Origin: Clostridia bacterium
Lineage (GTDB): Bacteria > Bacillota > Clostridia > Oscillospirales > QAMX01
Assembly (NCBI GenBank): GCA_017532825.1
Contig: JAFXIT010000059.1
Coordinates: 1-37,764, forward strand
Direction: 5' to 3'
DNA: 37,764 nucleotides
Shown here: positions 1-20,119 of the stretch, in pieces
How the letters are laid out: every line of letters starts with the position of its first letter
Numbering within the stretch: the stretch's first letter is position 1
Notes under the pieces: model-generated
What the model was told of the DNA's origin: nothing
Databases searched by the model: none
What the model saw: only the letters and a program-made list of their open reading frames with translations
Program-made: the position numbers and the translations under genes

Positions 1-132
<132 letters not shown>

Positions 133-138
133 AAAGTC

Positions 139-171
139 ACACCCTATGGCCTTTCGCCATAGGGTGTTTTC
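139..171 (+). terminator. Rho-independent terminator of lysS
   Basis: A perfect 12-bp stem (139-150 with 156-167) has a 5-nt loop (CTTTC) and is followed by TTTTCCTTT. It lies 7 nt after the lysS stop codon. Confidence 0.9.
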
Positions 172-283
172 CTTTGTGGCAAGGGTACAGTCCTACCCTT
201 CCCCCTACCGCAAGAACAAGACAGCTCGGAGACTACATATACAAACTTGGGACAAATCAATAATATACAAGGAGGTCAACCGC

Positions 284-1111
284 ATGAGTGTATTAAGCAG
301 GGTGAATGATTTCAAAGCCTTCCTCATCCACGAGGAAAAGAGCGATGCCACCGTCGAAAAGTACGTTCGGGACGTACGCTCTTTCGGCCGTTTTCTGTCA
401 GGCCGTGAAATAAGCAAGCAGGAAGTCATCGACCACAAAAAGCAGCTCTCCAAGCATTACGCTCCCTCAAGCGTGAACTCTATGTTAGTTTCCGTCAACC
501 GTTTTTTACATTTCATAGGCCGACCCGATTGCTGTGTAAAGCTGCTCAAAATTCAACGGCAGATGTTCACAAGCGAAAAAAAGGAGCTCACAGCCGCCGA
601 ATACCGCCGTCTGCTGAAGGCGGCGCAGGGTACACGGCTGGAGCTGGTGATCCAGACCATCTGCGAAACGGGCATAAGAGTCAGCGAACTGAGGTATATT
701 ACCGCAGAGGCCGTCGAGCAGGGACGGACGTCCGTGGACTGCAAAGGCAAAGCCAGGGTGATCTTTATTCCCTCTGCGCTCAGAAGGCGGCTTCTTGAGT
801 ACAAAAAAAGGACCGATATACGGTCCGGAAGTCTTTTTATAACGAGAAGCGGAAAGCCTCTCAACAGGAGCAATATCTGGCGTGAGATGAAGAGTCTCTG
901 CGAAAAGGCAGGAGTTCTTCCCTCCAAGGTGTTTCCGCACAACCTCCGCCATCTCTTCGCAAGGACCTTTTACTCTCTTGAAAGGGATATCGTAAGGCTG
1001 GCCGACCTCCTCGGACACAGCAGCATCAACACCACACGCATCTACACAGTCGAAACGGGAAAACAGCATCTTGACTGTATCGAAAGGATACACCGACGAT
1101 TAACAACATAA
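284..1111 (+). CDS. Tyrosine site-specific recombinase (putative DNA invertase)
   Basis: A 275-aa XerC/XerD-like recombinase that would cut and rejoin DNA through a 3'-phosphotyrosine. Residues 1-95 look like the helical SAM-like core-binding domain and the rest is the catalytic domain. All catalytic positions are visible: Arg132 in TGIRVSEL, a beta-hairpin Lys (154 or 156, KGKAR), His219 and Arg222 in HNLRH, His245 in LLGHSS, and Tyr254 in the IYT motif. I chose ATG 284 because AAGGAGG (269-275) sits 8 nt upstream; a longer in-frame reading from 146 starts inside the lysS terminator. The stop codon lies inside recombination site A, and sites B and C follow within 350 bp with a promoter between them. 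The likely job is therefore local promoter inversion and not phage integration. No excisionase or attachment site was seen. The function as an invertase is inferred from context; the enzyme family is certain. Confidence 0.93.
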   Translation: MSVLSRVNDFKAFLIHEEKSDATVEKYVRDVRSFGRFLSGREISKQEVIDHKKQLSKHYAPSSVNSMLVSVNRFLHFIGRPDCCVKLLKIQRQMFTSEKKELTAAEYRRLLKAAQGTRLELVIQTICETGIRVSELRYITAEAVEQGRTSVDCKGKARVIFIPSALRRRLLEYKKRTDIRSGSLFITRSGKPLNRSNIWREMKSLCEKAGVLPSKVFPHNLRHLFARTFYSLERDIVRLADLLGHSSINTTRIYTVETGKQHLDCIERIHRRLTT

Positions 1112-1126
1112 TACCAATTATGTTGT
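1103..1126 (+). repeat. Recombination site A (centre ACCA)
   Basis: A perfect inverted repeat of 10 nt (1103-1112 and 1117-1126) surrounds the centre ACCA at 1113-1116. Its 18-bp core is 1106-1123. It overlaps the last codons and TAA (1109-1111) of the recombinase; the stop lies in the left arm, so strand exchange in the centre would not alter the protein. The asymmetric centre makes the site directional, and A is opposite to B and C. The arrangement of two 10-nt arms around a 4-nt spacer is shorter than a Xer site, whose spacer is 6-8 nt, so the exact cleavage positions are unknown. Confidence 0.82.
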
Positions 1127-1190
1127 ATTAATCAATTCTCCGAGCAGTGCATTTACTGTTCTTGTGGGCTTACTTTCCCAATTAAAATAA

Positions 1191-1255
1191 AAAGGCGCAC
1201 AAGACAGACCGGTAAAACAAAAATAGCTGTTCCGGCCTGTTTTTTGTGCGCCTTT
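1191..1255. terminator. Bidirectional terminator inside the invertible segment
   Basis: A long hairpin: 1191-1202 pairs perfectly with 1244-1255 (12 bp). An inner stem (1204-1212 with 1232-1240) has one mismatch. A-rich sequence precedes it and TTTATTTA follows, so T-tracts occur on both strands. In the orientation shown it separates the recombinase from the switch promoter. After A x B inversion it would lie between the reversed promoter and the polysaccharide operon, blocking read-through. Confidence 0.8.
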
Positions 1256-1296
1256 ATTTAAATAATTCAGAGAGAAAAAGAAAATTTAGTCAATGT

Positions 1297-1312
1297 GTTG
1301 TTAAATAACAAC
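1297..1312. promoter_or_regulatory. Palindrome abutting the -35 element
   Basis: The arms GTTGTTA and TAACAAC are separated by two bases and touch the -35 hexamer at 1313. The same GTTGTTA/TAACAAC words recur next to the recombination sites (perfect palindrome GTTGTTAACAAC at 1369-1380; TTAACAAC at 1100-1107). It could be an accessory site for the recombinase or an operator. No binding data are implied. Confidence 0.45.
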
Positions 1313-1341
1313 TTGCAATTAGCAATTCGCTGTGATATAAT
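1313..1341 (+). promoter_or_regulatory. Sigma-A promoter of the polysaccharide operon, on the invertible segment
   Basis: TTGCAA (1313-1318), a 17-bp spacer and TATAAT (1336-1341), with the extended -10 dinucleotide TG at 1333-1334. Expected start of transcription is about 1348. It points right, through sites B and C, into the gene at 1633. It lies between site A and site B, so its direction depends on the state of the switch. Confidence 0.82.
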
Positions 1342-1375
1342 TAGACCAAGAATCGGGAACTGCACCTTGTTGTTA

Positions 1376-1399
1376 ACAACATAATTGGTATTATGTGAC
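1376..1399 (-). repeat. Recombination site B (centre TGGT)
   Basis: The arms ACAACATAAT and ATTATGTGAC surround the centre TGGT (1386-1389). Its reverse complement shares 21 contiguous bases with site A. The right arm departs from perfect symmetry in its last three bases. The left arm overlaps the perfect palindrome at 1369-1380. It is inverted relative to A and direct relative to C. It lies in the transcribed leader, about 30 nt after the predicted start. Confidence 0.82.
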
Positions 1400-1438
1400 A
1401 AGACGGTATTTTCACCAAGTTTGCTGTTGGTCGTTTAT

Positions 1439-1462
1439 GTTACATAATTGGTATTATGTTGC
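1439..1462 (-). repeat. Recombination site C (centre TGGT)
   Basis: The arms GTTACATAAT and ATTATGTTGC surround the centre TGGT (1449-1452). The 18-bp core (1442-1459) is identical to that of B and to the reverse complement of that of A. C lies 63 bp from B in direct orientation and is inverted relative to A. It gives the recombinase a second inversion partner and a possible 63-bp excision. Confidence 0.75.
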
Positions 1463-1632
1463 CCCGTTCACGAGATTTCCGCCGACGAAAGTTGCGCCGA
1501 TTCCCAATTTTGCAATATAAAAAACGACAGCTGCGTTGCCCACCGCCCATTTCGATGAGTTTGAGATGCGGCAGACCGACCGCCCATTCGGGCACAACGG
1601 CAGACAAGGTGTGAATCGAAAGGAAAAAACAT
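1463..1632 (+). other. Constant part of the operon leader
   Basis: About 170 nt between site C and the first operon gene. It stays in place whichever way the switch points. The last bases hold the ribosome site GAAAGGA for the ATG at 1633. I see short GC-rich words that could pair (for example GCCCATTCGGGC-like sequence near 1580-1593) but no recognisable riboswitch, ops/JUMPStart or EAR element and no terminator. The longer reverse-strand readings here are not supported by a ribosome site. Confidence 0.4.
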
Positions 1633-2406
1633 ATGAACGCAGATAAAACCGATACCAATATCAAAGACTACTACGGCGTTGATCTGGCTCACATAGTAAA
1701 GGTCATCTGGCACAGGATCTGGATAGTAGGCATAGTCGGACTTTTGCTGGCGGCCATAGGGTTTGCGATGGCGGCGTTCGCCATCACTCCCACCTACTCG
1801 TCCTCGGTAATGCTCTACGTTAACAACAGCTCCTTCAACGTCGGAGACCTTGGTTTCAGCATCAGCTCCTCACAGCTGACCGCAGCACAGAGCCTGACGA
1901 GGACCTATACGGTGCTGTTGAAAAACCGCACGACCCTTGAACGTATCATAGACGAGACCGACGTCCGATACACCTGGAAAGAGCTCTACGACATGATAGA
2001 TGCAGGCTCTGTAAACGAGACCGAAATAATACGAGTCACCGTTACGAGCACGAATCCCTATGAAGCCGAAAAGATAGCAAACGGCATTGCAACGATACTC
2101 CCCCAGCGTGTTTCGGAGGTCGTGGAAGGGGCTTCGATGGAGGTCGTCGATTCGGCTATCGCCGATATGAAGAAGGTAGCGCCGAGCATAACGGTCTATA
2201 CGGCCGTCGGATTTATACTTGGCGTGCTGTTGGCGGTAATCGTTCTTATAATTTTGGCGTTGATGGATAATACCGTCCACGATGAGGATTACGTCATAAA
2301 GACCTATGACTATCCCGTTCTTGCAAAGATACCCGACCTGCTGGAAGCAAATACAAAGAGGTACGGTTATTACTATAAACGGCATTCCGGCAAGGAGGGA
2401 GCGTAA
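1633..2406 (+). CDS. Wzz/CpsC-type chain-length protein and BY-kinase adaptor
   Basis: A 257-aa inner-membrane protein of the Wzz/CapA (polysaccharide co-polymerase) family. It has an N-terminal cytoplasmic stretch, a membrane segment at about residues 30-52, an extracytoplasmic domain beginning PTYSSSVMLYVN, and a second membrane segment at about 189-212. A short cytoplasmic tail follows, ending with several Tyr. In Gram-positive capsule systems such adaptors bind and activate the separately encoded tyrosine kinase and set polymer length. The kinase gene follows with a TAATG overlap, which supports this. ATG 1633 is preceded by GAAAGGA. It is the first gene of the operon and receives the switch promoter directly. 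Confidence 0.9.
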   Translation: MNADKTDTNIKDYYGVDLAHIVKVIWHRIWIVGIVGLLLAAIGFAMAAFAITPTYSSSVMLYVNNSSFNVGDLGFSISSSQLTAAQSLTRTYTVLLKNRTTLERIIDETDVRYTWKELYDMIDAGSVNETEIIRVTVTSTNPYEAEKIANGIATILPQRVSEVVEGASMEVVDSAIADMKKVAPSITVYTAVGFILGVLLAVIVLIILALMDNTVHDEDYVIKTYDYPVLAKIPDLLEANTKRYGYYYKRHSGKEGA

Positions 2407-3170
2407 TGTTCGGCCGAAAAAAGCACAGCGAAAGTCCGTTTTCGATCAAGGACACCCAAAAGACCCTGCACAAGAATTTGGAATTTACGGCCACCGAGCA
2501 ATACAAGCTTCTGAGGACGAACCTGAAATTCACCCTGCCCGATGAGGACGGCTGCAAGATCATCGGCGTTACCAGCTCGATGAGGGGCGAAGGAAAGAGT
2601 ACCACCGCCGTTAATCTGTCCTACGTGTTGGCCGAAAACGGAAAAAAGGTCCTGCTTATCGACGGAGACCTGCGAATCCCCTCGGTTGCCAAAAAGATGG
2701 AGATCGACAGCTCCCCGGGTCTTACCGATCTGCTCAGGGGGGACACCAAGATCGATATAGCCTCTTTAAGGTCACCCCACCTTCCGAATTGGTACATTAT
2801 GCCATCCGGAGCCTTACCTCCCAACCCTTCCGAATTGTTAGGGTCAAAGCGTATGGAGGCCGCACTGAAAAGGTTAGCGGATATTTTCGACTACATCGTA
2901 GTGGACCTGCCCCCCGTAAACATCGTGTCCGACGCCCTGGCGATCTCGCAGTATATAACAGGAATCATCGTTGTTATCAGAGAGGAATATACCGAAAAAA
3001 GAGAGCTTACGACCTGCTTTAGACAGCTCAAGCTCTCCAACGCAAACGTTTTGGGCTGTGTTATGAACAGCACCAGCAGCGGAAAGGGATATTACAGCAA
3101 ATACAGGTACAAACGGTACTACAAATACTACAAAACGTATGGCTACTATGACAGTGCCGGCAACAGTTAG
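2406..3170 (+). CDS. CpsD/CapB-type bacterial tyrosine kinase (BY-kinase)
   Basis: A 254-aa cytoplasmic kinase with the BY-kinase layout. Walker A is GEGKST in residues 61-66, Walker A' is LLIDGDLR at 83-90, and Walker B is IVVDLP at 164-169. The C-terminal tail (about 229-249) is packed with Tyr, the usual autophosphorylation cluster. Such kinases phosphorylate their own tail and cycle with the PHP phosphatase to control polymer assembly. It lacks the N-terminal membrane part because that is supplied by the upstream adaptor, whose stop codon overlaps this start. The phosphatase follows 14 nt downstream. Confidence 0.95.
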   Translation: MFGRKKHSESPFSIKDTQKTLHKNLEFTATEQYKLLRTNLKFTLPDEDGCKIIGVTSSMRGEGKSTTAVNLSYVLAENGKKVLLIDGDLRIPSVAKKMEIDSSPGLTDLLRGDTKIDIASLRSPHLPNWYIMPSGALPPNPSELLGSKRMEAALKRLADIFDYIVVDLPPVNIVSDALAISQYITGIIVVIREEYTEKRELTTCFRQLKLSNANVLGCVMNSTSSGKGYYSKYRYKRYYKYYKTYGYYDSAGNS

Positions 3171-3184
3171 AGGAGGCGCAGTGC

Positions 3185-3886
3185 TTGATTGACTTCCACA
3201 CGCATATCCTGCCTGCGGTTGACGACGGGAGTCGCAGTATCGACGAGAGTCTGTTGATGTTAAGGGCGCTGTCCGAGCAAAACACAAAAAAGGTTATCCT
3301 GACCCCGCACTTTTACGCCGACAATGAATCCGTCGATTCATTTCTGAACCGCCGAAACGAGGCTTACGAGCTCCTAAAGGCAAAGGCGCCGTCTGACAGC
3401 CCGAATACGGTCTTGGGCGCCGAGGTCAGGTATTACGCAGGGATAGGTCATCTGCAGGAGCTTAAGAAGCTGCGGATAGACGGCACAAAATTGCTTTTGC
3501 TTGAAATGCCCTTCAGCCATTGGACCGAGCATTCCCTATCCGAGGTGCTTGATATCGCAGGCAGGGGAAATATCACGCTTGTCCTTGCGCATATCGAAAG
3601 GTACCTTCCCTTCATAACCGGCAATATTTTTCAGCGGCTGGCAGAAAGCGGCGTCCTGTTTCAAGCCAACGCAAGCTTTTTTGACGGCTTTTTCAAATCG
3701 GCAAAGGCGATAAAAATGCTCAAGGAAAACAGGATCCATTTTATCGGCTCCGACTGTCACAACACCTCTGAGCGCAGACCCAATATGACTACGGCGTTCC
3801 AAACCCTGAACAGAAGGCTCGGGGAGTACGCCGCAAAAAAATTTTTCGACTACGGGAACCAATTGTTCCTGCAAAATCAAATTTAA
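3185..3886 (+). CDS. CpsB/YwqE-type PHP-domain tyrosine phosphatase
   Basis: A 233-aa metal-dependent (Mn-type) phosphotyrosine phosphatase of the PHP superfamily that would reset the BY-kinase. Metal-binding motifs are visible: DFHTHILP at the N-terminus, the LTPHFY motif, GAEVRYY, VLAHIERY and IGSDCHN near the C-terminus. The start is an uncommon TTG at 3185. AGGAGG at 3171-3176 gives an 8-nt spacing and the N-terminus then matches the family exactly (MIDFHTHILP); no ATG or GTG in this frame fits. The kinase/adaptor/phosphatase trio is the standard regulatory core of Firmicutes capsule operons. Confidence 0.93.
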   Translation: MIDFHTHILPAVDDGSRSIDESLLMLRALSEQNTKKVILTPHFYADNESVDSFLNRRNEAYELLKAKAPSDSPNTVLGAEVRYYAGIGHLQELKKLRIDGTKLLLLEMPFSHWTEHSLSEVLDIAGRGNITLVLAHIERYLPFITGNIFQRLAESGVLFQANASFFDGFFKSAKAIKMLKENRIHFIGSDCHNTSERRPNMTTAFQTLNRRLGEYAAKKFFDYGNQLFLQNQI

Positions 3887-3918
3887 AAACTTATCCAATT
3901 GAAAGGATGGATTTTATC

Positions 3919-4599
3919 ATGAAAAAAGCTGCTACTCTTTGTCTGTCCCTGGTCTTACTCCTTTCCCTGAGTTTGACCGCACTCGCCGCTCCCGACGGAT
4001 TTATTTCCAGCCCCTCGGGCAACCCCGCTCCCACGATCATCGACTTTATCCCCGCCAACGATGACTGCACCGCGACCGCCGTCATCACCTCCTACGGAGA
4101 TAGACACAATCTCCCCGACGCTCTCCGCACGATGCTTGAAAAGGCCTACAGCGACATAACTAACGCCGGCAACATCACCGAGCTCAACACCGCACTTGCG
4201 CAGCTCGTCGAGGAAAAGCAGCTCAACAGCTCAAAGCTCGTTGTCAGCGATCTGTTTGACATCCACGTAACCGGCTGTGACTACCACTCCGAGCACAGGG
4301 ATTTTGACATCACTCTGGCGGCAGAGACCCTCAAGCACTTCGTGGCCCTTCTTCACATGAACGCAGAGGGTGTTTGGGAGATTGTAGCCGATGCCACCGT
4401 CGTCAGTAACGGCGAGCACCTGCAGTTCTCCGTTGACGCCTTCTCCCCCTTTGCCATCGTTGTTGACACCACTTCCGAAAGCGGTGACACGCCTCCGACC
4501 GGCAACAACGGTATGATCTATCTTTGGGGCACGCTCGTCGTTGCAGCAGGCGCACTTTTGATCTTGATCTGCTATAAGACAAAGAAGCAGAAGGCATGA
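3919..4599 (+). CDS. Secreted, C-terminally membrane-anchored protein of unknown function
   Basis: About 226 aa from ATG 3919. A start at 3907 is possible, but it lies directly on the GAAAGGA ribosome site (3901-3907), and ATG 3919 begins the MKKA typical of a signal peptide. The signal peptide ends near ALAAP. The middle is an uncharacterised globular region with no motif I recognise. The C-terminus carries DTPPTGNN, a hydrophobic segment (about 18 residues) and KTKKQKA. That layout resembles a sortase sorting signal, but PPTGN is not a canonical LPxTG, so it may simply be a membrane anchor. Its stop overlaps the LCP gene start (ATGA), so the two are translationally coupled. Confidence 0.75.
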   Translation: MKKAATLCLSLVLLLSLSLTALAAPDGFISSPSGNPAPTIIDFIPANDDCTATAVITSYGDRHNLPDALRTMLEKAYSDITNAGNITELNTALAQLVEEKQLNSSKLVVSDLFDIHVTGCDYHSEHRDFDITLAAETLKHFVALLHMNAEGVWEIVADATVVSNGEHLQFSVDAFSPFAIVVDTTSESGDTPPTGNNGMIYLWGTLVVAAGALLILICYKTKKQKA

Positions 4600-5597
4600 G
4601 TGCAAACAAACACAGCAACGAGGTAAGAGCAATGTCCCTCAAGGTCGGGGTCATTGCTCTTACCGTCATCTTTTTAGTCTCCTTGCTCATGCTTGCGGCA
4701 GGTCTTTTTGAAAGGTATAACAGCCGGTACAGCGGAGATGAGGTGTCCATAGAGGATTCCGTCATCTACAACGGGCAAAAATACCTCCTTAACGAAAATA
4801 TCGAGACCGTTTTGCTGTTAGGCTTGGACAAGCTTGTCGGTGACGGAAACGAGTCGTACAACAACGACAAGCACGCCGACTTTTTAATGCTGCTGGTCCT
4901 TGACCACGAGGCTCGGAGCTGCCGTGTTATCCACCTGAACCGTGATGCGATGGTAGGGATGAACATCCTCGGCGTCGCAGGGGACAAGGTCGGTACGGTG
5001 ACCAAGCAGTTAGCCCTTGCACACACCTACGGCAACGGAAGGGAAGTAAGCTGCAGAAACACCGCTAACGCCGTCTCCAAAATGCTTATGGGCGTAGAGA
5101 TCGATCATTATCTGTCGGTCACTATGGAGGCCGTATCCGCCTACAACGATCTCCTCGGCGGTGTAACGCTGGAGGTCCTGGACGATTTTACCGGAATAGA
5201 CGACTCGTTGGTAAAGGGTAAGACCGTCTCGCTTACGGGCGAGCAGGCTCTTGTCTACGTTCGTTCCAGGTACGGTCTTGACGATCCGACCAACAACAAC
5301 CGTATGAAGCGACAGAGACAGTATCTTGAAGCGCTTTATAATAAGACCTGTCAGGCGATCGATGGGGATCCGGCGTTTATTTCCCAGGCAGCTTTGACCG
5401 TGGCAGACTATCTGGTCTCTGATTGTTCGGGAAACAAGCTGGAAACGCTTGTGAAGCGTCTTTCCGAATACGAAATGGCCGCTCCCCTTGACATCGACGG
5501 CAAGACCCTAACGGGAGAAAAGTTTTTGGAGTTTTATCCCGACGAGGAATCGATAAAAAAGGTCGTAGTTGAGTCTTTTTACATTCCGGAAGAATAA
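4596..5597 (+). CDS. LytR-CpsA-Psr (LCP) family glycopolymer ligase
   Basis: A 333-aa protein with an N-terminal membrane anchor (about residues 14-36) and an extracytoplasmic LCP domain. Family landmarks are ETVLLLGLDK, the acidic DKHADFLMLLVLD, the Arg motif IHLNRDAMV, the central VTMEAVSAYNDLLGGVTLEV, and ALVYVRSRYG followed by RMKRQRQYLEAL. LCP enzymes move undecaprenyl-pyrophosphate-linked polymers onto peptidoglycan. Its presence suggests the product is wall-attached, capsule-like, and not purely secreted slime. The start ATG overlaps the upstream stop. Confidence 0.93.
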   Translation: MSANKHSNEVRAMSLKVGVIALTVIFLVSLLMLAAGLFERYNSRYSGDEVSIEDSVIYNGQKYLLNENIETVLLLGLDKLVGDGNESYNNDKHADFLMLLVLDHEARSCRVIHLNRDAMVGMNILGVAGDKVGTVTKQLALAHTYGNGREVSCRNTANAVSKMLMGVEIDHYLSVTMEAVSAYNDLLGGVTLEVLDDFTGIDDSLVKGKTVSLTGEQALVYVRSRYGLDDPTNNNRMKRQRQYLEALYNKTCQAIDGDPAFISQAALTVADYLVSDCSGNKLETLVKRLSEYEMAAPLDIDGKTLTGEKFLEFYPDEESIKKVVVESFYIPEE

Positions 5598-5623
5598 ACC
5601 AAGACGAAAGGATGTGATCCAAG

Positions 5624-6313
5624 GTGGAAGCAATGAAACAACCGCTCAGCGATACAAAGGTTGTGGTCATACTGCCCTACGGACGTTGTGAAGACGTCTA
5701 TATCGAGGACCTGGGTGACGTTCGGGTGCCAAGGCGGTATGCGTTTTTCAAGCGCTTATTTGACCTGGTCTTTTCCGCAACCGCTCTGATAGTACTTGCC
5801 TTACCGATCTTGATCATCTCTTTGCTTGTAAAGTTTGGTTCAAAGGGTACCGTCTTTTATCGGCAGGAGCGTTTGGGGCTTAACGGAAAGAAGTTTAACG
5901 TAATCAAATTCCGAACCATGGATATGAATGCGGAAAAGGACGGATGCAGATGGTCCGACGGTGACGACGACCCTCGGATAACCTCCGTCGGCAGATTTCT
6001 CAGAAAGACCAGACTGGATGAACTCCCCCAATTTTGGTGTATCCTCAAAGGCGAAATGAGTTTAGTCGGCCCCAGACCGGAAAGAGAGTGCTTCTATAAC
6101 GAATTTGAGAAGTACATCCACGGCTTCAGTCAAAGGCTGAAGGCCAAGCCCGGACTTACCGGTCTGGCGCAGGTCAAGGGTGGCTATTACTTGAAACCGG
6201 AAGAAAAAATAATGTACGATATCGACTACATAAAAAACAGGTCCTTGAAGTTGGATATGAAGCTTGTGCTTGATACGGTCAAGGTAGTCCTCAAGCGCGA
6301 AGGCGCGAAGTAA
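5624..6313 (+). CDS. Undecaprenyl-phosphate sugar-1-phosphate transferase (initiating enzyme)
   Basis: A 229-aa monotopic phosphoglycosyl transferase (WbaP/PglC-like bacterial sugar transferase domain). It would load the first sugar-1-phosphate onto undecaprenyl phosphate at the inner membrane. Visible are a re-entrant hydrophobic helix (about residues 33-62), YRQERLGLNGKKFNVIKFRTM, the catalytic-type DDPRITSVGRFLRKTRLDELPQ, MSLVGPRPE, and KPGLTGLAQVKG. It is the short form without the polytopic N-terminal domain. The start is either GTG 5624 (used here) or ATG 5633; both lie behind GAAAGGA at 5606-5612 and the choice is not firm. It is the last gene before the AT-rich variable block. Confidence 0.94.
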   Translation: MEAMKQPLSDTKVVVILPYGRCEDVYIEDLGDVRVPRRYAFFKRLFDLVFSATALIVLALPILIISLLVKFGSKGTVFYRQERLGLNGKKFNVIKFRTMDMNAEKDGCRWSDGDDDPRITSVGRFLRKTRLDELPQFWCILKGEMSLVGPRPERECFYNEFEKYIHGFSQRLKAKPGLTGLAQVKGGYYLKPEEKIMYDIDYIKNRSLKLDMKLVLDTVKVVLKREGAK

Positions 6314-6412
6314 TCGATATGATCGAATGAATCATTGTATGGTTCAGCAACCTGTGTAATGATGCGGGATTCTTTGTTTGTATGTGTTTATGCAGTACAT
6401 TTGAGGTGAAGT

Positions 6413-7225
6413 ATGCAAAAAAGAATAAACGGTGTAACGATCATTATGCCGGCATATAATGCTGAAGCTACAATAAATCAAGCGATACAGTCGGTCATCA
6501 AGCAGAGTTACGCTGCATGGGAACTAATTGTAATAGATGACAAATCATGCGACAAAACAAGTTCCATAGTCCAATCGTTCATAACTAACGATCCACGAAT
6601 AAGGTTAATATCCAACCAACAAAACAAAGGAGTTTCTGTTTCCCGAAATATTGGTGTTGCCCTTGCACAATATCAATGGATCGCATTTTTGGATAGTGAC
6701 GATTATTGGGAGCAGAATAAGCTAAGCAAGCAGATCGAGGCTCTGCAAGAACACAAAGATTGCAAGCTCTGCTTTACAGGAACAAGGTATCTTTGCAGCG
6801 GCGGGGATCTTTCTCACTACATTCTTCAAGTCCCATCGAAAGTATTTGGCGAGGATATACTCAGGCAAAACGTTATATCATGCTCGTCGGTCCTCGTCGA
6901 GAAGGAAGCTTTGTTACGTAACCCTATGCCGAATATCCGGACATTGCACGAGGATCTTGCAACGTGGTATAAGATCCTTAAGTCCGAAAACAAGGAGTCA
7001 GCTTCATACGCAGTAGGCATTAACGAACCCTTGTTAGTTTATCGGCTCAGCAGTTCCGGAAAATCAGGAAACAAGCTTAAGTCAGCGGTAATGCAATGGA
7101 AAACGTATCGGTATTTAGGTATTTCATTTTTTAAATCAGTGGCATGCTTTATTTCATATGTTGTTAGAAATGTAAACAAATACCGTAAGATCAGAAAACA
7201 GGGCGGTGGTTTGGCCCAAATATAG
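6413..7225 (+). CDS. GT2-type glycosyltransferase
   Basis: A 270-aa GT-A fold inverting glycosyltransferase. The N-terminus reads VTIIMPAYNAEATINQAIQS, then ELIVIDDKSCDKT, then GVSVSRNIG, and the metal/nucleotide-sugar motif AFLDSDDYW. The C-terminal third is more basic and hydrophobic, suiting membrane association. It should add one sugar to the lipid-linked repeat; donor and linkage cannot be read from sequence. It begins the AT-rich block after a 99-nt gap without a terminator. The ATG has TGAGGTGA upstream. Confidence 0.9.
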   Translation: MQKRINGVTIIMPAYNAEATINQAIQSVIKQSYAAWELIVIDDKSCDKTSSIVQSFITNDPRIRLISNQQNKGVSVSRNIGVALAQYQWIAFLDSDDYWEQNKLSKQIEALQEHKDCKLCFTGTRYLCSGGDLSHYILQVPSKVFGEDILRQNVISCSSVLVEKEALLRNPMPNIRTLHEDLATWYKILKSENKESASYAVGINEPLLVYRLSSSGKSGNKLKSAVMQWKTYRYLGISFFKSVACFISYVVRNVNKYRKIRKQGGGLAQI

Positions 7226-7236
7226 GAGATTGGAAA

Positions 7237-8034
7237 ATGCATCTACAAGTATTAGTTGCAACGATTAACCAATATGATGATTCGATCGTCAATAAAATGA
7301 ATATACGTTGCGATTCGATCGTCGCAAACCAAACCGACCGAGCTGAAATTAAGGATATTACGATTAACGGTTTTAGACACAAGATCATCTCGACCAAAAC
7401 GCGTGGAGTCGGAGTAAATCGGAATATTGCATTATTGGCTTCCGATTCAGACGTGGTGCTTTTTGCTGATGATGACGTCGTGTACAATGACGATGTGGCA
7501 AGTCGCGTAATCAAAGCATTTGAGGAAACTCCGCAGGCAGACGTTATTGTGTTCGGAATGGACATGACTAAAGCCGGCCTTGTTTACGAAAAACGAAGAT
7601 GTAAGAACCGGAAGCTTCACGTTTGGAATTCAATGCGATACGGCACCTGCAGAATCGCTGCGAGAAGAGAATCATTGCTTAATAGTAACATCCATTTTCA
7701 CCAATGCTTTGGCGGAGGATGTTTGTTTTGTTCCGGCGAGGACAGTCTGTTCCTTAAAGAGTGTTTTGACAAAGGGTTGAAGGTGTACTCCCACGAGTAT
7801 GTCCTTGGAAGGTGCAGCAAAGACAATTCGACATGGTTTACAGGGTGTGACGAAAAGTACTTTTATGATAAAGGGGTCCTGTTTCGGCATCTGTTCCCGT
7901 TTGCAGCGTATTTAATGGCATTATATTTTGGCCTTCGTTTTAAGCGCAAGACCGATATAAGTATAATAAAAAGATTGTCTTTGATCTACTCCGGCGTACG
8001 CAATGGCAAGAAAATGATTCCGTATAAGGGCTGA
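7237..8034 (+). CDS. Glycosyltransferase, divergent GT2/GT-A type
   Basis: 265 aa with a GT-A-like pattern. A short N-terminal strand (LQVLVATINQ), TRGVGVNRNIAL, and the acidic motif VVLFADDDVVYNDD take the place of the usual DxD region. GGGCLFCSGEDSLFLKEC could form the acceptor/catalytic part, with GED as a candidate base. Lengths and motif order fit small capsule glycosyltransferases, but it is more divergent than its neighbours. It is preceded by TAGGAG 9 nt before ATG and is 11 nt from the upstream gene. It is immediately followed by the relic of another glycosyltransferase. Confidence 0.8.
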   Translation: MHLQVLVATINQYDDSIVNKMNIRCDSIVANQTDRAEIKDITINGFRHKIISTKTRGVGVNRNIALLASDSDVVLFADDDVVYNDDVASRVIKAFEETPQADVIVFGMDMTKAGLVYEKRRCKNRKLHVWNSMRYGTCRIAARRESLLNSNIHFHQCFGGGCLFCSGEDSLFLKECFDKGLKVYSHEYVLGRCSKDNSTWFTGCDEKYFYDKGVLFRHLFPFAAYLMALYFGLRFKRKTDISIIKRLSLIYSGVRNGKKMIPYKG

Positions 8035-8035
8035 T

Positions 8036-8140
8036 ACGAAACGACTCATCATTGTTAATAATACGAAAATCGGTGGTGTGCAAGAAAGCCTTTGTAATTT
8101 GCTTTGTGAAATAGAAAAGGAGCACTCTTGTGTCAAATGA
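8036..8140 (+). pseudogene. Relic of a GT4-type glycosyltransferase N-terminus
   Basis: The frame at 8036-8140 encodes 34 residues beginning (T)KRLIIVNNTKIGGVQESL and going on to NLLCEIEKEH before TGA. The GGVQ-x-S-L pattern after a first hydrophobic strand is the typical start of GT-B fold GT4 glycosyltransferases. The expected start ATG is ACG here (8036-8038), and the remaining several hundred residues are missing. What is left now supplies the ribosome site (AAGGAG 8117-8122) of the next gene. This looks like the scar of a deleted gene. The alternative, a short functional leader peptide, is less likely because there is no start codon. Confidence 0.6.
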
Positions 8141-9078
8141 TGGACAGTATCACCATTTCTGTAATAGTTCCCATATATAAAGTTGAAGGGTATCTGGATC
8201 GATGTGTTCGCTCATTGATAGAGCAGACCTATACAAATTTAGAGATCATTCTTGTGGACGACGGAAGTCCGGATTCTTGTCCCGAAATGTGTGACGGATA
8301 TGCAAAAGAGGATAGCCGCATCCGTGTGATACACAAACCAAACGGTGGATTGTCCGACGCAAGAAACGCCGGAATAGAGGCTGCATCAGGGGATTACATA
8401 ATGTTTGTCGACTCCGACGACTATATTGACCCCGATGCCTGTGAGAGACTTGCCTCATTTATGAAGGACCGTCCCGACATTATCATCGGAGACGGTAAAT
8501 CTAACGATAAAAACAGAAAAATAAAGCACTGCGGGTTTTATTCAGCCTGTTCCGGAAAAGAGTATTTAAAACGGGCGGTAAAAGCCAATGCTATGCCCGT
8601 GATGGTCTGGTTATATGTCTTTAATAAAGACTTTTTGAATAATTACGGTTTTCGATTCAAAAAAGGTATAGCTCATGAAGATGAGGAGTTCACACCGCGT
8701 GTTTTTTTGGAAGCGGCTTCGGTTATTGAGACCGGAGTGTGCTTTTATAATTACATGGTACGCAACGACTCAATTACAACTAATCCGGATCTGAGAAAGA
8801 ACGCCGTTGACTTATACAACACATGTCTTGACTTAGAAAAACGATACGAGCAACTTGAAGATAACGAACTCAAAAAGATCCTTTTAGATTCGCTTGTTAT
8901 GAAATACTTGAGTCTTGCGCAGACCGGGCGTCTATACCGATATGGACGAGCTTATATACACAAGTCTTTTGTTTTCAGAAACTCCTTTTTTACAAAAACG
9001 AAGTTTAAAGCCGTACTGTACTGCCTTAACCCTTCTCTGTATTGGCATGTAAATAATATAACCAAAAAAATCAAATGA
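8128..9078 (+). CDS. GT2-type glycosyltransferase (EpsJ-like)
   Basis: 316 aa with a textbook GT2 N-terminus: ISVIVPIYKVEGYLDRCVRS, then EIILVDDGSPDSCPEMCD, HKPNGGLSDARNAGIEAA and the DxD motif MFVDSDDYIDPDA. The C-terminal part (HEDEEFTPR, typical of this subfamily) probably shapes the acceptor site. The start is uncertain: TTG 8128 has the best spacing (5 nt) to AAGGAG at 8117-8122, while ATG 8137 or 8140 would shorten the protein by 3-4 residues. It overlaps the GT4 relic. A T7 run near 8702 lies inside the gene. Confidence 0.92.
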   Translation: MCQMMDSITISVIVPIYKVEGYLDRCVRSLIEQTYTNLEIILVDDGSPDSCPEMCDGYAKEDSRIRVIHKPNGGLSDARNAGIEAASGDYIMFVDSDDYIDPDACERLASFMKDRPDIIIGDGKSNDKNRKIKHCGFYSACSGKEYLKRAVKANAMPVMVWLYVFNKDFLNNYGFRFKKGIAHEDEEFTPRVFLEAASVIETGVCFYNYMVRNDSITTNPDLRKNAVDLYNTCLDLEKRYEQLEDNELKKILLDSLVMKYLSLAQTGRLYRYGRAYIHKSFVFRNSFFTKTKFKAVLYCLNPSLYWHVNNITKKIK

Positions 9079-9100
9079 ACTGTTTGAATAAGGGAAGGAT

Positions 9101-10192
9101 GTGATTCGAATTATTGTCTCCTATATACTGTATATCGGCGTTTTGATTATATGTTGGCAAATAGCTCGTTTCGCAGAATTCTGCAACAGTAAAAAGAGCG
9201 TGTGGGCGATTGTAGTTATTCTGACTTTGTTTGCGGGCTTACGTCACTATTCTGTCGGAATAGATACGATATCCTACGCAAACCACTTTGATCTGATAAA
9301 AAGGGGCGAGCTTGCATACGCATACGGGCTGGAAGAAGGCTTTAAATACATTTGTTATGGTTTTCTGAAAATTATACCAAACACTTCAGCACTGCTTGTC
9401 TTTTTATATTTTATAATCAACGGCTTGATCGTTTGGCGAATGTGGGATTTTAAAAGAGTTTCCGCTTTTGGCACCATGGTAGCGTGCTATTATATGGCTT
9501 TTTTCCACTCATCATTGAATATTATGCGCCAGTTTTGTGCTGTTGCCATTATTTTCTTTTTCACTCGTTATTTGACAAGGCACAAAACGTTACTATATAT
9601 AATTGGTGTAGTGCTCGCATCTCTGTTCCACACCTCCGGCTTGTTGGGAATCGTCTTTCTTGCGATCAATCTTCTCCGTTGGAAGCAACTGAAAACTAAA
9701 GAAAAGGTCTTCTACATAGGAATTCTTGCGTCGTTTCCCTTTTTAACGGCCTATTTGGTTACACAAATGCTCCGCTATGAATCTGATTTTATTTTCGGCG
9801 GATATGACGTAGGCTTTATGGTCCCGATTAAAATTTTATTTTATGCCTTCACTCTATTATTTGTTTACGCCTTTTACGGCCACCACAACCATTTCGCCGA
9901 CTGGGCGACCATGACCGAGGATAACAAAACCGAGGTTTACACGGCTCAAATATATTACGGAGCAGGCCTGTTGATGTTGTTTTTGAGCTATATGTTTTCA
10001 GCGCTCAACCGAGCAGGGTTGTATTTCAGCATTTTTGAAGCAGTTTATTTCGGAACCCTGGTGCGAACAAAGCATCGATCTCACAGACAAATTTTTGGAG
10101 CCTGTGCGCTTGCCATCGTCGGATACGGCTTTGTTATGGCAATGATCGGGAACGAACATGGAACGATGCCGTATTTGTTCACGTGGCAATAG
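9101..10192 (+). CDS. EpsG family polysaccharide polymerase (Wzy-like)
   Basis: 363 aa, strongly hydrophobic, with about 9-10 predicted membrane segments. An early extracytoplasmic motif, LRHYSVGIDTISYANHF, is the hallmark of the EpsG/Wzy-like family. The role is polymerisation of flipped repeat units on the outer face of the membrane. The start is GTG 9101 preceded by AGGGAAGGAT; the N-terminus then begins in the first membrane helix. Together with the flippase at 11326 it makes this a Wzx/Wzy-dependent pathway. Substrate linkage cannot be inferred. Confidence 0.88.
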   Translation: MIRIIVSYILYIGVLIICWQIARFAEFCNSKKSVWAIVVILTLFAGLRHYSVGIDTISYANHFDLIKRGELAYAYGLEEGFKYICYGFLKIIPNTSALLVFLYFIINGLIVWRMWDFKRVSAFGTMVACYYMAFFHSSLNIMRQFCAVAIIFFFTRYLTRHKTLLYIIGVVLASLFHTSGLLGIVFLAINLLRWKQLKTKEKVFYIGILASFPFLTAYLVTQMLRYESDFIFGGYDVGFMVPIKILFYAFTLLFVYAFYGHHNHFADWATMTEDNKTEVYTAQIYYGAGLLMLFLSYMFSALNRAGLYFSIFEAVYFGTLVRTKHRSHRQIFGACALAIVGYGFVMAMIGNEHGTMPYLFTWQ

Positions 10193-10213
10193 CCGTTTCA
10201 AGGAGAAAGCGCA

Positions 10214-11287
10214 ATGAAAGTCGGTATTATTTCAATGCAAAGGGTCGGTAATTACGGCTCATTTTTGCAGGCATATGCGTTGAAAAGATTGATCGAAGAT
10301 CTTGGAAACGACGTCGTTTTTGTAGACATTGACGCTTCTGAAACCAATAAAAAAGTCTTTTTAAAATCGTTTAAATTCAGACGGTATATTTTTAAACGCC
10401 TTCGATACGGAAGAAAAGGAAAGCTCGTTTCACAAAAGTACAAAGAGGCACAAGCCAAGTACTTGAATTTAGCCGATCGGAAAATGACTTCAGAGAACTG
10501 CGACGCTATCGTGATCGGCAGCGACGAGATCTTTAATTGCGATTCACAAGGAGCATGGAAGATCACAAGAGAGCGGTTCGGATATGTTCCGGCAGCTAAG
10601 CGCGTAATCAGTTACGCAGCCTCTTGCGGCAACACCGATATAACCGGCGCCTCAAGTGAAGATGTTGAGATTATAAAAACGGGGCTTTTTTCGCTTCAAG
10701 CCATATCGGTAAGAGATCAAAATACTGCAAAAATGGTTTTCGACGTTTCCGGATTTTCCGCAAACAAGCACGTCGACCCGGTACTTGTTTACAACTTTAA
10801 AAGCGAAATGGCTAGCTGTGCGAAAACCGTTTTTCCGGCAGGACCTTATATGATCGTATATGCGTATAGAGGAAGGATCAATTCCAGGGATGAGATCAAA
10901 GCAATACGGGCATATGCTCGTAAAAAAGGTCTGCGGATCCTTTCCGCCGGCGGTATGCAGGCGTGGTGTGATGATTATCTTGTTTTAGATCCATTTGAAG
11001 TGCTGCTATACTTTAAAAATGCGGCATGTATCGTTACCGATACCTTCCACGGGACGGTTATGGGCGCAAAATTTAACAAGCCTATGGCTGTATTTGTCAG
11101 AGAGAGCAATTCTAACAAACTCATAGATCTGTTGGAGCATTTTCACATGGAGTCCCATATCGTGCATAACGTCAATAATATTGCCGAGATTATCGATCGC
11201 GAAAACGATTACAGTGCTTTTAACAGAATTGCAGATGAAGAATCCGCACGAACACGCAAATACCTAAAGGAGCAATTAAGTATATAG
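10214..11287 (+). CDS. Polysaccharide pyruvyl transferase family protein
   Basis: 357 aa of the CsaB/EpsO-like family that transfers pyruvate from phosphoenolpyruvate onto a sugar, adding an acidic ketal. Visible are the N-terminal VGNYGSFLQAYALKRLI, VIGSDEIFN in the middle, SVRDQNT, and the conserved TDTFHGTVMGAKFNKPM near the C-terminus. AAGGAG lies 9 nt before ATG. It is probably cytoplasmic, acting on the lipid-linked repeat before flipping. Pyruvylation makes the polymer negatively charged, and in some walls it creates binding sites for surface proteins. Activity is inferred from family only. Confidence 0.88.
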   Translation: MKVGIISMQRVGNYGSFLQAYALKRLIEDLGNDVVFVDIDASETNKKVFLKSFKFRRYIFKRLRYGRKGKLVSQKYKEAQAKYLNLADRKMTSENCDAIVIGSDEIFNCDSQGAWKITRERFGYVPAAKRVISYAASCGNTDITGASSEDVEIIKTGLFSLQAISVRDQNTAKMVFDVSGFSANKHVDPVLVYNFKSEMASCAKTVFPAGPYMIVYAYRGRINSRDEIKAIRAYARKKGLRILSAGGMQAWCDDYLVLDPFEVLLYFKNAACIVTDTFHGTVMGAKFNKPMAVFVRESNSNKLIDLLEHFHMESHIVHNVNNIAEIIDRENDYSAFNRIADEESARTRKYLKEQLSI

Positions 11288-11325
11288 AGGACTGTACGGA
11301 AGCAGCAGGATGACAGGAGCAGCCG

Positions 11326-12741
11326 ATGAATCAGAGGAGTCGAGATCTAATTAAAAATATCATCAGCTTTGCTTTCGGGAAGATCGGAGTCCGACTGATC
11401 TCTTTCCTTCTCGTACCGGTTTATACACACATATTATCGACCGACGAATACGGAACCTTGGATCTGATATCCACTGTATGTACCGTATTGGTTCCGATAC
11501 TTACTCTGAACATCTATGAATCGGTCATGCGCTTTTGTTTAGACAAAGGAGCGGATCGAGAACAGATCCTAAGTATCGCCACATCTGTCTTGGCAGTCGG
11601 TTCCGTTGTAGGACTGTTAATAATTCCGATAAGTTATTTGATACCTTCTTTTTCAAGCCTGAGTTGGTATATTTATGCTTACATAGTCAGCGCAGCCGTT
11701 ATGCAGGTTTTTCTGGCATATTTGCGAGGGTGTGAAAGGCTGAATCTGTATTCGATCGGAAATATAATTCATACTGCGCTTTCCGCAGTACTGAATATTG
11801 TTTTTCTGGTCGGTTTGCGAATGGGCGTTCAAGGCTATTTGTTGGCATATATATTGTCCAATCTTGCAACAGCCGTTTTTGCGGTGATCGTCGGACAAGC
11901 ATACCGTGCAATCAAGCGGTTCCGCTTTGACAAAGCCTTGATCAACAGCATGTTGCGCTTTTCAGTTGTGCTAATTCCCAACTCTTTTATGTGGTGGATC
12001 ATCAACTCCTCCGACAGAGCTATGGTCACCGCAATGGCAGGAGCCGCGGCTAACGGTATATATGCAATCGCCTACAAAGTTCCTTCGTTGCTGACTGCAA
12101 TCTCCGGCGTGTTCAACCAATCGTGGATATATACTGCTATCAAAGAAAATGATAGTGCATGTGCGGATCAATATCATGACTCCGTATACAACAGAATGGC
12201 ACAAACACTCATTTGCCTCGTGGCTTTTATATTGGTGTTTCTCAAACCGTTTATGTCTGTATACACATCCAAAGAATACTATATTGCGTGGAAATACACC
12301 CCCTTTCTTCTTATTGGCTTTTTGTTTTTGTCGCTGGGAACGTTTTTGTCCACGTCGTACACGGTAAACAAAAACGGTATGGGCTTTTTGCTTTCAGGTA
12401 TCGTCGGCGCTGTATTAAATATTCTGCTGAATTTCAGTTTAATTCCCATAATCGGTGCAATGGGCGCTACAATTGCAACCTGTTTTAGTTATATTGGAGT
12501 TTTTGCGTTTAGGGCCGTTCATACAAAAAAATATGTAAAAATTCAAACAGCCCGAAAAGGTCATTTAATTGGATATCTACTGCTTGCTGTTATGAGTGGG
12601 ATAGAGTTTGTGGATGCCTTTTGGGGCGAGGTCCTCTTGATCATACTTTTTTCAATTATTCTTTATTTAAATCGAGGACTTTTTATTGCAATGCTCGGTG
12701 CTTTAAAAACAAGAAGAAAAGAAAAGCGATTCTATGATTAA
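11326..12741 (+). CDS. Wzx-type oligosaccharide flippase
   Basis: 471 aa with about 12-14 membrane segments along its length, of the MOP/polysaccharide transport family. The N-terminus KNIISFAFGKIGVRLISFLLVPVY is typical, with TDEYGTLDLI following. NSSDRAMVTAMAG lies in the middle. It would move the undecaprenyl-linked repeat across the membrane for the EpsG-type polymerase. It overlaps the next gene by 8 nt. The ribosome site is an AGGAG-like sequence at about 11314. Confidence 0.92.
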   Translation: MNQRSRDLIKNIISFAFGKIGVRLISFLLVPVYTHILSTDEYGTLDLISTVCTVLVPILTLNIYESVMRFCLDKGADREQILSIATSVLAVGSVVGLLIIPISYLIPSFSSLSWYIYAYIVSAAVMQVFLAYLRGCERLNLYSIGNIIHTALSAVLNIVFLVGLRMGVQGYLLAYILSNLATAVFAVIVGQAYRAIKRFRFDKALINSMLRFSVVLIPNSFMWWIINSSDRAMVTAMAGAAANGIYAIAYKVPSLLTAISGVFNQSWIYTAIKENDSACADQYHDSVYNRMAQTLICLVAFILVFLKPFMSVYTSKEYYIAWKYTPFLLIGFLFLSLGTFLSTSYTVNKNGMGFLLSGIVGAVLNILLNFSLIPIIGAMGATIATCFSYIGVFAFRAVHTKKYVKIQTARKGHLIGYLLLAVMSGIEFVDAFWGEVLLIILFSIILYLNRGLFIAMLGALKTRRKEKRFYD

Positions 12742-13942
12742 CATCCTTAGAAAAAGCCATTGCTCCGGGTGTTCCGCCTGTGCAAATGCTTGTCCTGTCG
12801 GCGCTATTGTCATGAAGCCGGACGAGCACGGATTTCTGTTTCCGGCAGTGGATGTGAGCAAGTGTATAGATTGCGGATCGTGTGACAACGTGTGTCACTT
12901 CGCAAATCCAAATGACCGTCATCATTGCATTGCCGCCTATGCTATGCAATCGGCGGATCACGAGCTGCTGAAGGCCTCCGCCTCCGGCGGAGTGTTTGCA
13001 TCACTTGCCAGAGAAATTATTGCGCAGGGAGGTGTAGTGGCAGGATGCACATTGGAACACACATGCGACGGAGCATTTGAGGTTAAGCACATTGTTATTA
13101 ATTCGCTCAATGATCTGCACAAACTTCAAGGATCCAAATACGTGCAAAGCTCTATGGACGATACGTACGTAAAAGTGAAAGAGTTCCTTGATCGTGGAAT
13201 AAAGGTGCTGTTTTCCGGAACGCCGTGTCAAGTTGCCGGCCTTAAAAGCTTTTTGACCAATGCAGATCATCCCGACCTTTTGACTGTGGATATTATCTGT
13301 CACGGCGTGCCAAATGCGCAGATGTTCTATGATTATATAAAAACACAAGAAAAAAAGCACAAATTAAAAATCACCGATTTTCGCTTTCGCGACAAGTCAG
13401 ACACTTGGGGATTAACCGGAGGCGTTAGTTACACGGACGACAACGGCAAAAAGCACACGGTATCCTTTCCGGCTCGCAAATCCTCTTTTTACAAGCTTTT
13501 TCTCGGCGGTGAAATCTTCCGTGAATGTTGCTATCATTGCCCTTACGCTTCCCCGGAACGCCCCGGAGATCTGACCATAGGTGATTTTTGGGGAATTGAA
13601 AAAAATTATCCCGAATCAATTAGCGCAAACGGCGGCCCATTCAAGGTTGAAAAAGGTGTTTCTTGTATGTTGGTGAATACGAGAAAGGGGAACGAATGGG
13701 CAGAAGTTTTGACAACTCAAATGGAAGCCGTGCCGGTAGATTATAGGATCGTATCAAAAGAAAACCACCAGTTGTCCAGGCCTTCCGACTTGGGAAAGAA
13801 CCGTGACAAGGTACTGGTGTTGTATGGGAAACATGGATACGATGCTGTAGAAAAGTGGTTTCAACGGCACGATCTCATTCACAGGACTAAACGCAAGCTG
13901 TTTAACCTTTTGAACAGAAACAGAAAAAGGAGCAATGTATAA
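12734..13942 (+). CDS. F420-hydrogenase beta-subunit-like iron-sulphur protein
   Basis: 402 aa. The N-terminus carries two 4Fe-4S cluster motifs (CSGCSACANACP and CIDCGSCDNVCH). The coenzyme F420 hydrogenase/dehydrogenase beta-subunit N- and C-terminal domains follow, with SASGGVFASLA, FSGTPCQVAGL, DIICHGVP and CCYHCPYA. Members inside capsule operons are common in Clostridia and Bacteroidetes and are thought to do redox chemistry on a sugar or its modification; the reaction is unknown. It is likely cytoplasmic and oxygen-sensitive. Start and stop are interlocked with neighbours (8-nt overlap upstream, directly abutting LicD downstream). Confidence 0.9.
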   Translation: MINILRKSHCSGCSACANACPVGAIVMKPDEHGFLFPAVDVSKCIDCGSCDNVCHFANPNDRHHCIAAYAMQSADHELLKASASGGVFASLAREIIAQGGVVAGCTLEHTCDGAFEVKHIVINSLNDLHKLQGSKYVQSSMDDTYVKVKEFLDRGIKVLFSGTPCQVAGLKSFLTNADHPDLLTVDIICHGVPNAQMFYDYIKTQEKKHKLKITDFRFRDKSDTWGLTGGVSYTDDNGKKHTVSFPARKSSFYKLFLGGEIFRECCYHCPYASPERPGDLTIGDFWGIEKNYPESISANGGPFKVEKGVSCMLVNTRKGNEWAEVLTTQMEAVPVDYRIVSKENHQLSRPSDLGKNRDKVLVLYGKHGYDAVEKWFQRHDLIHRTKRKLFNLLNRNRKRSNV

Positions 13943-14806
13943 ATGGATAATCAAGCTTCTTCCTTAAGGGAACACCAAGAAGCACTGATAGTCCTTTTGG
14001 ATGAGTTTGACCGTGTATGCAAAATATTAAATATACCATACGTGCTGTTTGCCGGCACTATGTTGGGCGCCGTTCGCCATAAGGGTTTTATTCCGTGGGA
14101 TGATGATCTGGACGTATTGATGCTACGCAAGGATTACGCTCGCTTTCTGAACGAAGCCGATACGGTGATCGACAGAAAGCGGTTTTACCTGCAAAAAGAG
14201 TTTTCAGAACATTGGCCGATGTTTTTTTCCAAGCTGCGGCTCAACCAAACCACCTGTCTTGAGAAATATCATCCAAAAGATTCAAATTGTCATCAAGGAA
14301 TATATATGGACATATTTCCTTGCGACTATGCCAAGAATTCTGAATTCGGCCGAAAAATGCAGTTTTGGGCCTCCAAAGTGGTCATAGCAAAATCGCTGAG
14401 CCAAAGAGGATATGAAACCAAAAGCATTAAAAAGAAATTGTTCATTGCGGTTTGCCGTTTTCTGCCGAGAAAACCTTTTTGGAAATACGTTGCAAAAGAG
14501 AAAAGGACCGGGGATATGGTACACACCTTTTTCTCGGCCGCCAAGGACTATTCAAAAAACGTGTTTCCGTACGCTTTCATTACGGAGCGAACGAGCATTC
14601 AATTTGAAGGAAAGAAATATCCGATTCCCGTCAACTATCATCATCTGTTAAGCACTATGTACGGAGATTATATGGTCATTCCTTCACACAGAGAGCGAGA
14701 AGCAAAAAAACACGCAATAATCGTTGATACCTTAAGATCGTATGAGGATTATGAAGGGTGCAGAGATAAAATGTCTTTTGATGTTACCTCAAAAAGCATT
14801 CGGTAG
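13943..14806 (+). CDS. LicD family phospho-substituent transferase
   Basis: 287 aa of the LicD family (nucleotidyltransferase-like fold). The signature GTMLGAVRHKGFIPWDDDLDV spans about residues 37-57 and contains the catalytic acidic residues; YMDIFPCD follows in the second half of the fold. Family members transfer phosphocholine, or other phospho-alcohols, from a CDP-activated donor to glycans. The operon has no licA/licC-type genes, so the donor, and whether it is choline at all, is unknown. The ATG directly follows the upstream stop. The operon also encodes surface proteins with aromatic repeats, which is why this gene matters. Confidence 0.9.
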   Translation: MDNQASSLREHQEALIVLLDEFDRVCKILNIPYVLFAGTMLGAVRHKGFIPWDDDLDVLMLRKDYARFLNEADTVIDRKRFYLQKEFSEHWPMFFSKLRLNQTTCLEKYHPKDSNCHQGIYMDIFPCDYAKNSEFGRKMQFWASKVVIAKSLSQRGYETKSIKKKLFIAVCRFLPRKPFWKYVAKEKRTGDMVHTFFSAAKDYSKNVFPYAFITERTSIQFEGKKYPIPVNYHHLLSTMYGDYMVIPSHREREAKKHAIIVDTLRSYEDYEGCRDKMSFDVTSKSIR

Positions 14807-14841
14807 AAATGCGTGTGAAGCGGCAAAAGGGGTAAAGTGTC

Positions 14842-15420
14842 ATGAACAAGTATGAAACATACAAGATCAGCAAGATATCCTTATTGTTGTTATGTTGCTG
14901 CACCTTGTTGTTAGGTGCCTTTATCGGTACGGGCATTACCATGTTAATTTACGGCGGAAAACCACTTGATATGCCATCAAATGACATGTCCGACAATAAT
15001 AAAAACGAAGTTACGCTTCCTGCACATTCGAAATTTGCCGTGCTTTCAAAAAAGGAAGACGGTGATCTGGTAGTTGTGACAACGACCTACGGATCGTTTA
15101 GTTACCCATTTGCATTTACGGATGTTTTATCGTACGAAGCAAGTACGGATGACAGTTCCGCTGCCAAACTAAACTTTTACGCAGACATAGACGAAAATAA
15201 ATACATATTGTTCACGCTTAATTTCGGCATATCGGAAGGAATATTCATCGGCCGGTTAAATGTCGGAGAAGAAGGCGGTCAAACCGATGTTTCGGTCGTA
15301 TTTTACGACACCCCCGAAGCTTTGAGCAATGACGAGTTAACGACATATTATGCGGCTAAAGAATTGTTTAACGATATTGAGCAATCGCTAATGAAAAGCG
15401 GTAACTCTTTAAACCATTAG
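14842..15420 (+). CDS. Small membrane-anchored protein of unknown function
   Basis: 192 aa. Residues 1-12 are polar and basic, and 13-36 are a single hydrophobic segment with several Cys (LLLLCCCTLLLGAF). The rest is predicted to be outside the cell: an acidic linker, then a beta-rich domain of about 140 residues. I recognise no family. It lies at the end of the glycan-building genes and just before the giant surface proteins. A role in assembly or anchoring is possible, but that is context only. AAAGGGGTAAAG precedes the ATG. Confidence 0.75.
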   Translation: MNKYETYKISKISLLLLCCCTLLLGAFIGTGITMLIYGGKPLDMPSNDMSDNNKNEVTLPAHSKFAVLSKKEDGDLVVVTTTYGSFSYPFAFTDVLSYEASTDDSSAAKLNFYADIDENKYILFTLNFGISEGIFIGRLNVGEEGGQTDVSVVFYDTPEALSNDELTTYYAAKELFNDIEQSLMKSGNSLNH

Positions 15421-20099: not shown

Positions 20100-20119
20100 C
20101 CTCCCAAGGAAACAAGCCC

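Follow-up and report, generated by a model that had tools for sequence, protein, structure and literature searches.

Does the tyrosine recombinase gene that lies ahead of a capsule operon in an uncultured member of the Clostridia form, with the DNA behind it, a switch that turns the operon on and off? The locus belongs to the Clostridia bacterium assembly GCA_017532825.1, and the window that we analyzed is the whole of contig JAFXIT010000059.1 (37,764 nt), one of 65 contigs of a gut-type genome of 1,825,333 bases. Invertible promoters with neighboring recombinases are well known, and the original prediction placed such a switch, captured in the ON state, upstream of the operon. All of its elements were found, the promoter faces the operon as assembled, and both orientations occur among relatives. 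We hold it to be very likely that the locus is a recombinase-linked invertible promoter, i.e., a phase-variation switch, placed before a capsule/surface operon. The evidence is comparative and drawn from assembled sequences rather than from reads of this genome; inversion was not seen in this organism itself.

The 5′ end of the contig (positions 1 to 132) carries the 3′ end of an apparent lysS gene, recognized from its translation and followed by a hairpin terminator at 139 to 167, upstream of the recombinase gene. The surface operon opens with genes on the + strand for a Wzz-type chain-length protein (1633 to 2406; PF02706, 9.6e-16), a Wze/CpsD-type, tyrosine kinase-like ATPase (2406 to 3170; PF13614), and a CpsB/CapC phosphatase (3185 to 3886; PF19567, 1.2e-40), and an uncharacterized secreted protein with a signal or membrane segment and no Pfam match follows at 3907 to 4599. 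Further + strand genes encode a LytR-CpsA-Psr protein and an initiating sugar transferase (4596 to 6313; PF03816, PF02397), then three GT2 glycosyltransferases, EpsG, a pyruvyl transferase, a flippase, an FrhB-like protein, and LicD (6413 to 14806). A second protein with a signal or membrane segment and no Pfam match is encoded at 14842 to 15420. Next come two very large proteins, secreted or on the surface (15513 to 26688, + strand), the first of 1528 amino acids with an NAGPA domain and the second (20182 to 26688) a secreted-looking repeat protein of 2168 amino acids that matches no Pfam family. A tyrosine phosphatase and a sugar-nucleotide epimerase (26857 to 29328, + strand) likely end the unit, and strong terminator-like hairpins lie at 29538 to 29609, after the epimerase end at 29328. 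Wzz, kinase, phosphatase, sugar transferase, polymerase, and flippase are all present, as in a Wzy-type capsule or exopolysaccharide (EPS) operon, with EpsG counted as the polymerase-like member. The region from 1633 to 29328 (~28 kb) would presumably be a single transcript.

The proposed invertase (284 to 1111, + strand, 275 amino acids) matches PF00589 (2.3e-24) and PF02899 and has the R...H-x-x-R...H...Y catalytic domain of tyrosine recombinases of the phage integrase family. Residues R132, H219, R222, H245, and Y254 are kept at 98 to 99% across 108 relatives, a count that took in two sequences (L085 and L103) read on the wrong strand; the catalytic lysine likely lies in the region of 155 or 156, a less certain assignment. 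The protein has no second match in its own genome at an E value of 1e-20.

The stop codon of this gene had been claimed to lie inside a 10+4+10 inverted repeat, with two further, reversed copies of an 18-bp core, and the sequence bears out both statements. Site A (1103 to 1126, + strand; ACAACATAAT-ACCA-ATTATGTTGT) is a perfect palindrome (10+4+10) whose center is asymmetric, and the left arm of the site contains the TAA stop codon (1109 to 1111). Sites B (1376 to 1399) and C (1439 to 1462) both lie on the − strand, opposite in orientation to A and as direct repeats of each other, 63 bp apart from start to start with a linker at 1400 to 1438 between them. The 18-bp core of A (1106 to 1123) is the exact reverse complement of the B core (1379 to 1396) and of the C core (1442 to 1459), and between A and B the match extends over 21 bp, while B and C have one imperfect outer arm each (TTATGTGAC and GTTACATAA). 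Across all 1,825,333 bases, ACATAAT-N4-ATTATGT occurs exactly only at A, B, and C, and every other match has two mismatches. An exact inverted repeat of at least 14 bp appeared in 1 of 500 order-1 resamplings of positions 1084 to 1632. Two IMG/VR contigs that contain the 18-mer were set aside as chance matches, being microviruses by their proteins and having no site pair.

Between A and B, inverted repeats thus flank a promoter upstream of a gene, the arrangement of an inverton. The promoter, TTGCAA-17-TATAAT with a TG before the −10 box (1313 to 1341, + strand), faces the operon; it heads the ranking of promoter matches in positions 1 to 20000, in agreement with the strong extended −10 promoter of the original prediction. 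The invertible segment also contains a terminator-like hairpin (1191 to 1255), absent from that prediction, which has 12-bp perfect arms and a further inner stem, with energies of −33.1 and −36.3 kcal/mol (z scores of −6.9 and −8.0). Since an A-run precedes it and a T-run follows it, it can end transcription in both directions, and it would flip along with the promoter. An Rfam scan of the window gave no match at the gathering threshold and a single subthreshold chance match near the switch.

From this layout we infer that the recombinase would recombine A with B or C and so flip the terminator-promoter module in this organism. In the ON form, as assembled, the promoter would read into 1633 to 29328, with the terminator shielding the recombinase gene from it. 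In the flipped, OFF form, the promoter would aim at the 3′ end of the recombinase gene, with the terminator now between promoter and operon, where it would block read-through. Operon transcription would be expected to follow promoter orientation, and the recombinase stop codon, because it lies in the outer arm of A, should be kept through every inversion.

Relatives of the recombinase are widespread: at least 79 were found in GTDB contigs among the matches listed, and a match at an E value of 1e-80 or better is present in 66 of the 295 genomes sampled from the same order. We searched for sites in 86 unique loci that extend at least 450 bp beyond the stop codon, four duplicate records having been removed. 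An inverted site pair follows the recombinase gene in 81 of them, in 80 cases within ~550 bp and in one (L037) ~1 kb on. Five of these pairs were seen on a second look: those of L085 (strand), L060, L070, and L088 (variant arms), and L037 (distance). A pair was not detected in the remaining five loci (L103, L023, L028, L057, and L091). Spacing between the sites, beside the gene, is about 200 to 350 bp, and the family consensus is ACAACATAA-N6-TTATGTTGT, with the variants ACAACAGAA or ACAACAAAA. L028, which is the same record as L115, contains a 57-bp inverted copy of recombinase coding sequence ~317 to 373 bp past the stop codon, which suggests a remnant of a second, opposite-strand recombinase copy.

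These counts bear on an alternative in which the enzyme would be the integrase of a mobile element, with sites for attachment or resolution, or else an Xer/dif-like resolvase. The recombinase does match Xer models, and its closest solved relative by sequence is an XerC-like archaeal protein; the scores of all Xer models (XerC, XerD, and XerA) are nevertheless below the NCBIfam curated cutoffs (144.7 versus 220 bits for XerA). With inverted sites next to the gene, on either side of a promoter and a terminator, in 81 of 86 loci, with the gene coming after the 3′ end of lysS and its terminator, and with no relative of the recombinase found on viral contigs of IMG/VR by the search used, we regard a mobile-element or resolvase role as highly improbable.

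The sites themselves behave as partners. When they were picked by their arms alone, the 6-bp center was exactly complementary between paired sites in 72 of 76 loci, and it differed between loci, with 52 distinct centers. Tyrosine recombinases need a matching crossover region for strand exchange, and the match within each locus fits this need. Locus-specific centers suggest that the cassettes of one genome are kept from recombining together. Two recombinase-cassette copies ~7.4 kb apart in one genome (L083 and L084) have identical segments and the same center, so cross-recombination between them would be possible. Cassettes of one Lacrimispora/Hungatella group (L066, L074, L076, L079 to L081, and L083) show one orientation and one center (GAGGTA) across species. 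Their arms are asymmetric and their central hairpin is very strong; they may be locked or strongly biased.

Both orientations of the module were encountered among relatives. A promoter-like score of at least 11 was reached in 24 of 77 segments, compared with a mean of 0.7 in resamplings, and these 24 divide into 18 OFF, 5 ON, and 1 undecided. At the lower threshold, promoter direction could be called in 41 segments and was not clear in 36; 35 calls point toward the recombinase (OFF) and 6 toward the downstream genes (ON), against chance levels of 3.1 and 3.5, respectively, so that the 6 ON calls are near chance, although 5 of them score at least 11. The window is one of the 6, a minority form. 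In 39 of the 41 segments the hairpin of lowest energy is located behind the promoter; the other two are exceptions.

An inversion is also seen between homologous loci. L064 and L068 are collinear and 87.9% identical in the recombinase 3′ end and 78.8% identical in the 400 bp downstream, whereas the segment between their sites is 74.7% identical as the reverse complement and 61.8% in direct orientation. The L064 segment likewise matches those of L071 (70.8% reverse complement versus 58.3% direct) and L065 (66.7% versus 59.7%) better when inverted, again with both flanks collinear, the baseline of direct identity for an unrelated orientation being ~57 to 62%. The segments of L068, L071, and L065 agree among themselves in direct orientation. 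L011 and L013 segments suggest the same inverted relation. Contig ends tell a similar story: in 22 of 107 loci the contig ends no more than 500 bp past the recombinase stop codon, compared with 4 in which it ends ahead of the start (binomial P = 5e-4), and the contigs of L016, L021, L043, L095, and L116 stop 0 to 3 bases past a site. Mixed orientations break short-read assemblies, but repeats alone also produce contig ends.

A once-invertible cassette that is now locked ON in this lineage would leave the same assembled form, and a flipped copy was indeed not found in this assembly. A mixed population would still assemble to a single consensus, however, and the intact catalytic residues and perfect 18-bp cores speak against loss of function. 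We therefore judge locking to be improbable and retain a working switch as our reading of the locus.

Dozens of relatives have this kind of cassette ahead of other genes, many of which serve the cell surface. At positions 1 to 3 downstream, these genes include those for type IV leader peptidases (6), camelysin/TasA-like proteins (7), and sortases (3), as well as Ig-like surface proteins, signal peptidases, and a small number of regulators. L077 provides a second, distant case of a capsule operon (CpsB, Wzz, Wze, sugar transferase, and LCP), which lies behind an OFF-pointing cassette. On pMM59_01, a conjugative plasmid of Pusillibacter faecalis (L120), a relative of the recombinase is located 0.7 kb before a 4.5-kb S-layer-homology gene, and no site of the family consensus was found within 1 kb.

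What, then, does the third site do? As B and C are repeats of one another, A could recombine with either, which gives two inversions, A × B and A × C. Each would toggle between ON and OFF, and A × C would also carry the 63-bp B-C unit to the recombinase side, which would put four configurations within reach; recombination between B and C could delete the linker. Third sites are present in 11 of 108 loci, namely, the window, L007, L009, L025, L041, L054, L089, L098, L114, L102, and L116, the last two of which are cut by contig ends. Depending on the locus, the duplicated site is found toward the recombinase or toward the operon. L089, the nearest relative (63% identity), has its sites at −8, 45, and 328 relative to the stop codon, and the window has them at −8, 265, and 328; a quick tree joins the recombinases of these two loci as sisters with 99% support. 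Such positions would be expected were the outer pair to recombine as well, in a comparison that covers site positions only. On the same tree, into which L085 and L103 entered on the wrong strand and stand alone on long branches, the third-site trait is scattered, with 9 changes, at least 6 of them forced by starred branches. The linker of L007 (~20 to 70 bp past the stop codon) holds a promoter-like TTGCAA-17-TATAAT that points at the recombinase.

A rival explanation, to which we assign about an even chance, is that the inverton is binary, C (or B) being a decaying duplicate, with one pair in use and the linker without a role. Two sites suffice in most relatives, B and C each have an imperfect outer arm, and the exact tandem duplication of site and linker in L025 shows a trivial origin for a third site. 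Recurrence in 11 of 108 loci, the scatter on the tree, and the still perfect 18-bp core weigh on the other side, although neutral tandem duplications also predict recurrence and loss. A four-state element, with two ON and two OFF forms that would give graded or rate-tuned capsule control in a design recurrent in the family, is a tentative proposal that we think rather less probable. If it were true, the ON forms would differ in their leader, with or without the B-C linker, and in the leader containing it the B and C sites would be able to pair into a long hairpin.

The original prediction did not recognize recombinase and site from a described system, but in kind they are known: they belong to a family that is widespread in Clostridia and probably falls within a 2025 survey of the defined gut community hCom2 (PMC11892184). 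In that survey, inverton group 139 has its strongest link to invertase group 35, of the tyrosine type; 32 of its 33 invertons are in Clostridia, a tyrosine-type recombinase lies beside nearly all of them, two examples have ~205 and 227 bp between repeats, and reads showed flipping in Clostridium sp. D5 and in Intestinimonas butyriciproducens (PMC11892184), strains that were not recognized among the loci compared here. Those spacings fit the 200 to 350 bp of the present family, and since taxon, spacing, and gene arrangement agree, the family is probably inverton group 139/invertase group 35. The main text does not mention a terminator-promoter module, a third site, or a capsule operon for group 139 (PMC11892184). 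Nor were these features described for the family in the mostly open-access literature covered, and a literature search by repeat sequence gave no relevant paper among the results listed. The present locus links an entire capsule/EPS operon in an uncultured member of the Clostridia to a self-contained switch and provides an exact, searchable signature (recombinase, ACAACATAA-N6-TTATGTTGT sites, and terminator-promoter module) that stands ahead of Tad-type pilus peptidases, TasA/camelysin-like proteins, sortases, Ig-like surface proteins, and capsule genes. Such searches call for caution, as the OFF form predominates among assembled genomes, and contigs break at these sites.

Among better-known systems, the RecV switches of Clostridioides difficile (cwpV, flgB, and others) share the tyrosine recombinase, short inverted repeats, surface functions, and class Clostridia. 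RecV acts on several remote switches (PMC5903667), whereas the recombinase described here adjoins its only sites, as far as the systems can be compared by description. In an earlier survey, the inversions of Clostridia lay mostly near signaling genes (PMC5903667). In Bacteroides, invertible promoters also stand ahead of whole capsule operons, but the phylum, sites, and promoter differ, and the recombinase there, Mpi, is a serine recombinase that acts on at least thirteen regions (PMC5903667). Overlapping multi-site invertible clusters, such as pneumococcal hsdS with PsrA, are similar in having a tyrosine invertase and more than two repeats, which give more than two states, and PsrA of Streptococcus dysgalactiae is 32.5% identical to the recombinase; these clusters rearrange coding sequences, while the cassette described here would rearrange a promoter and a noncoding linker.
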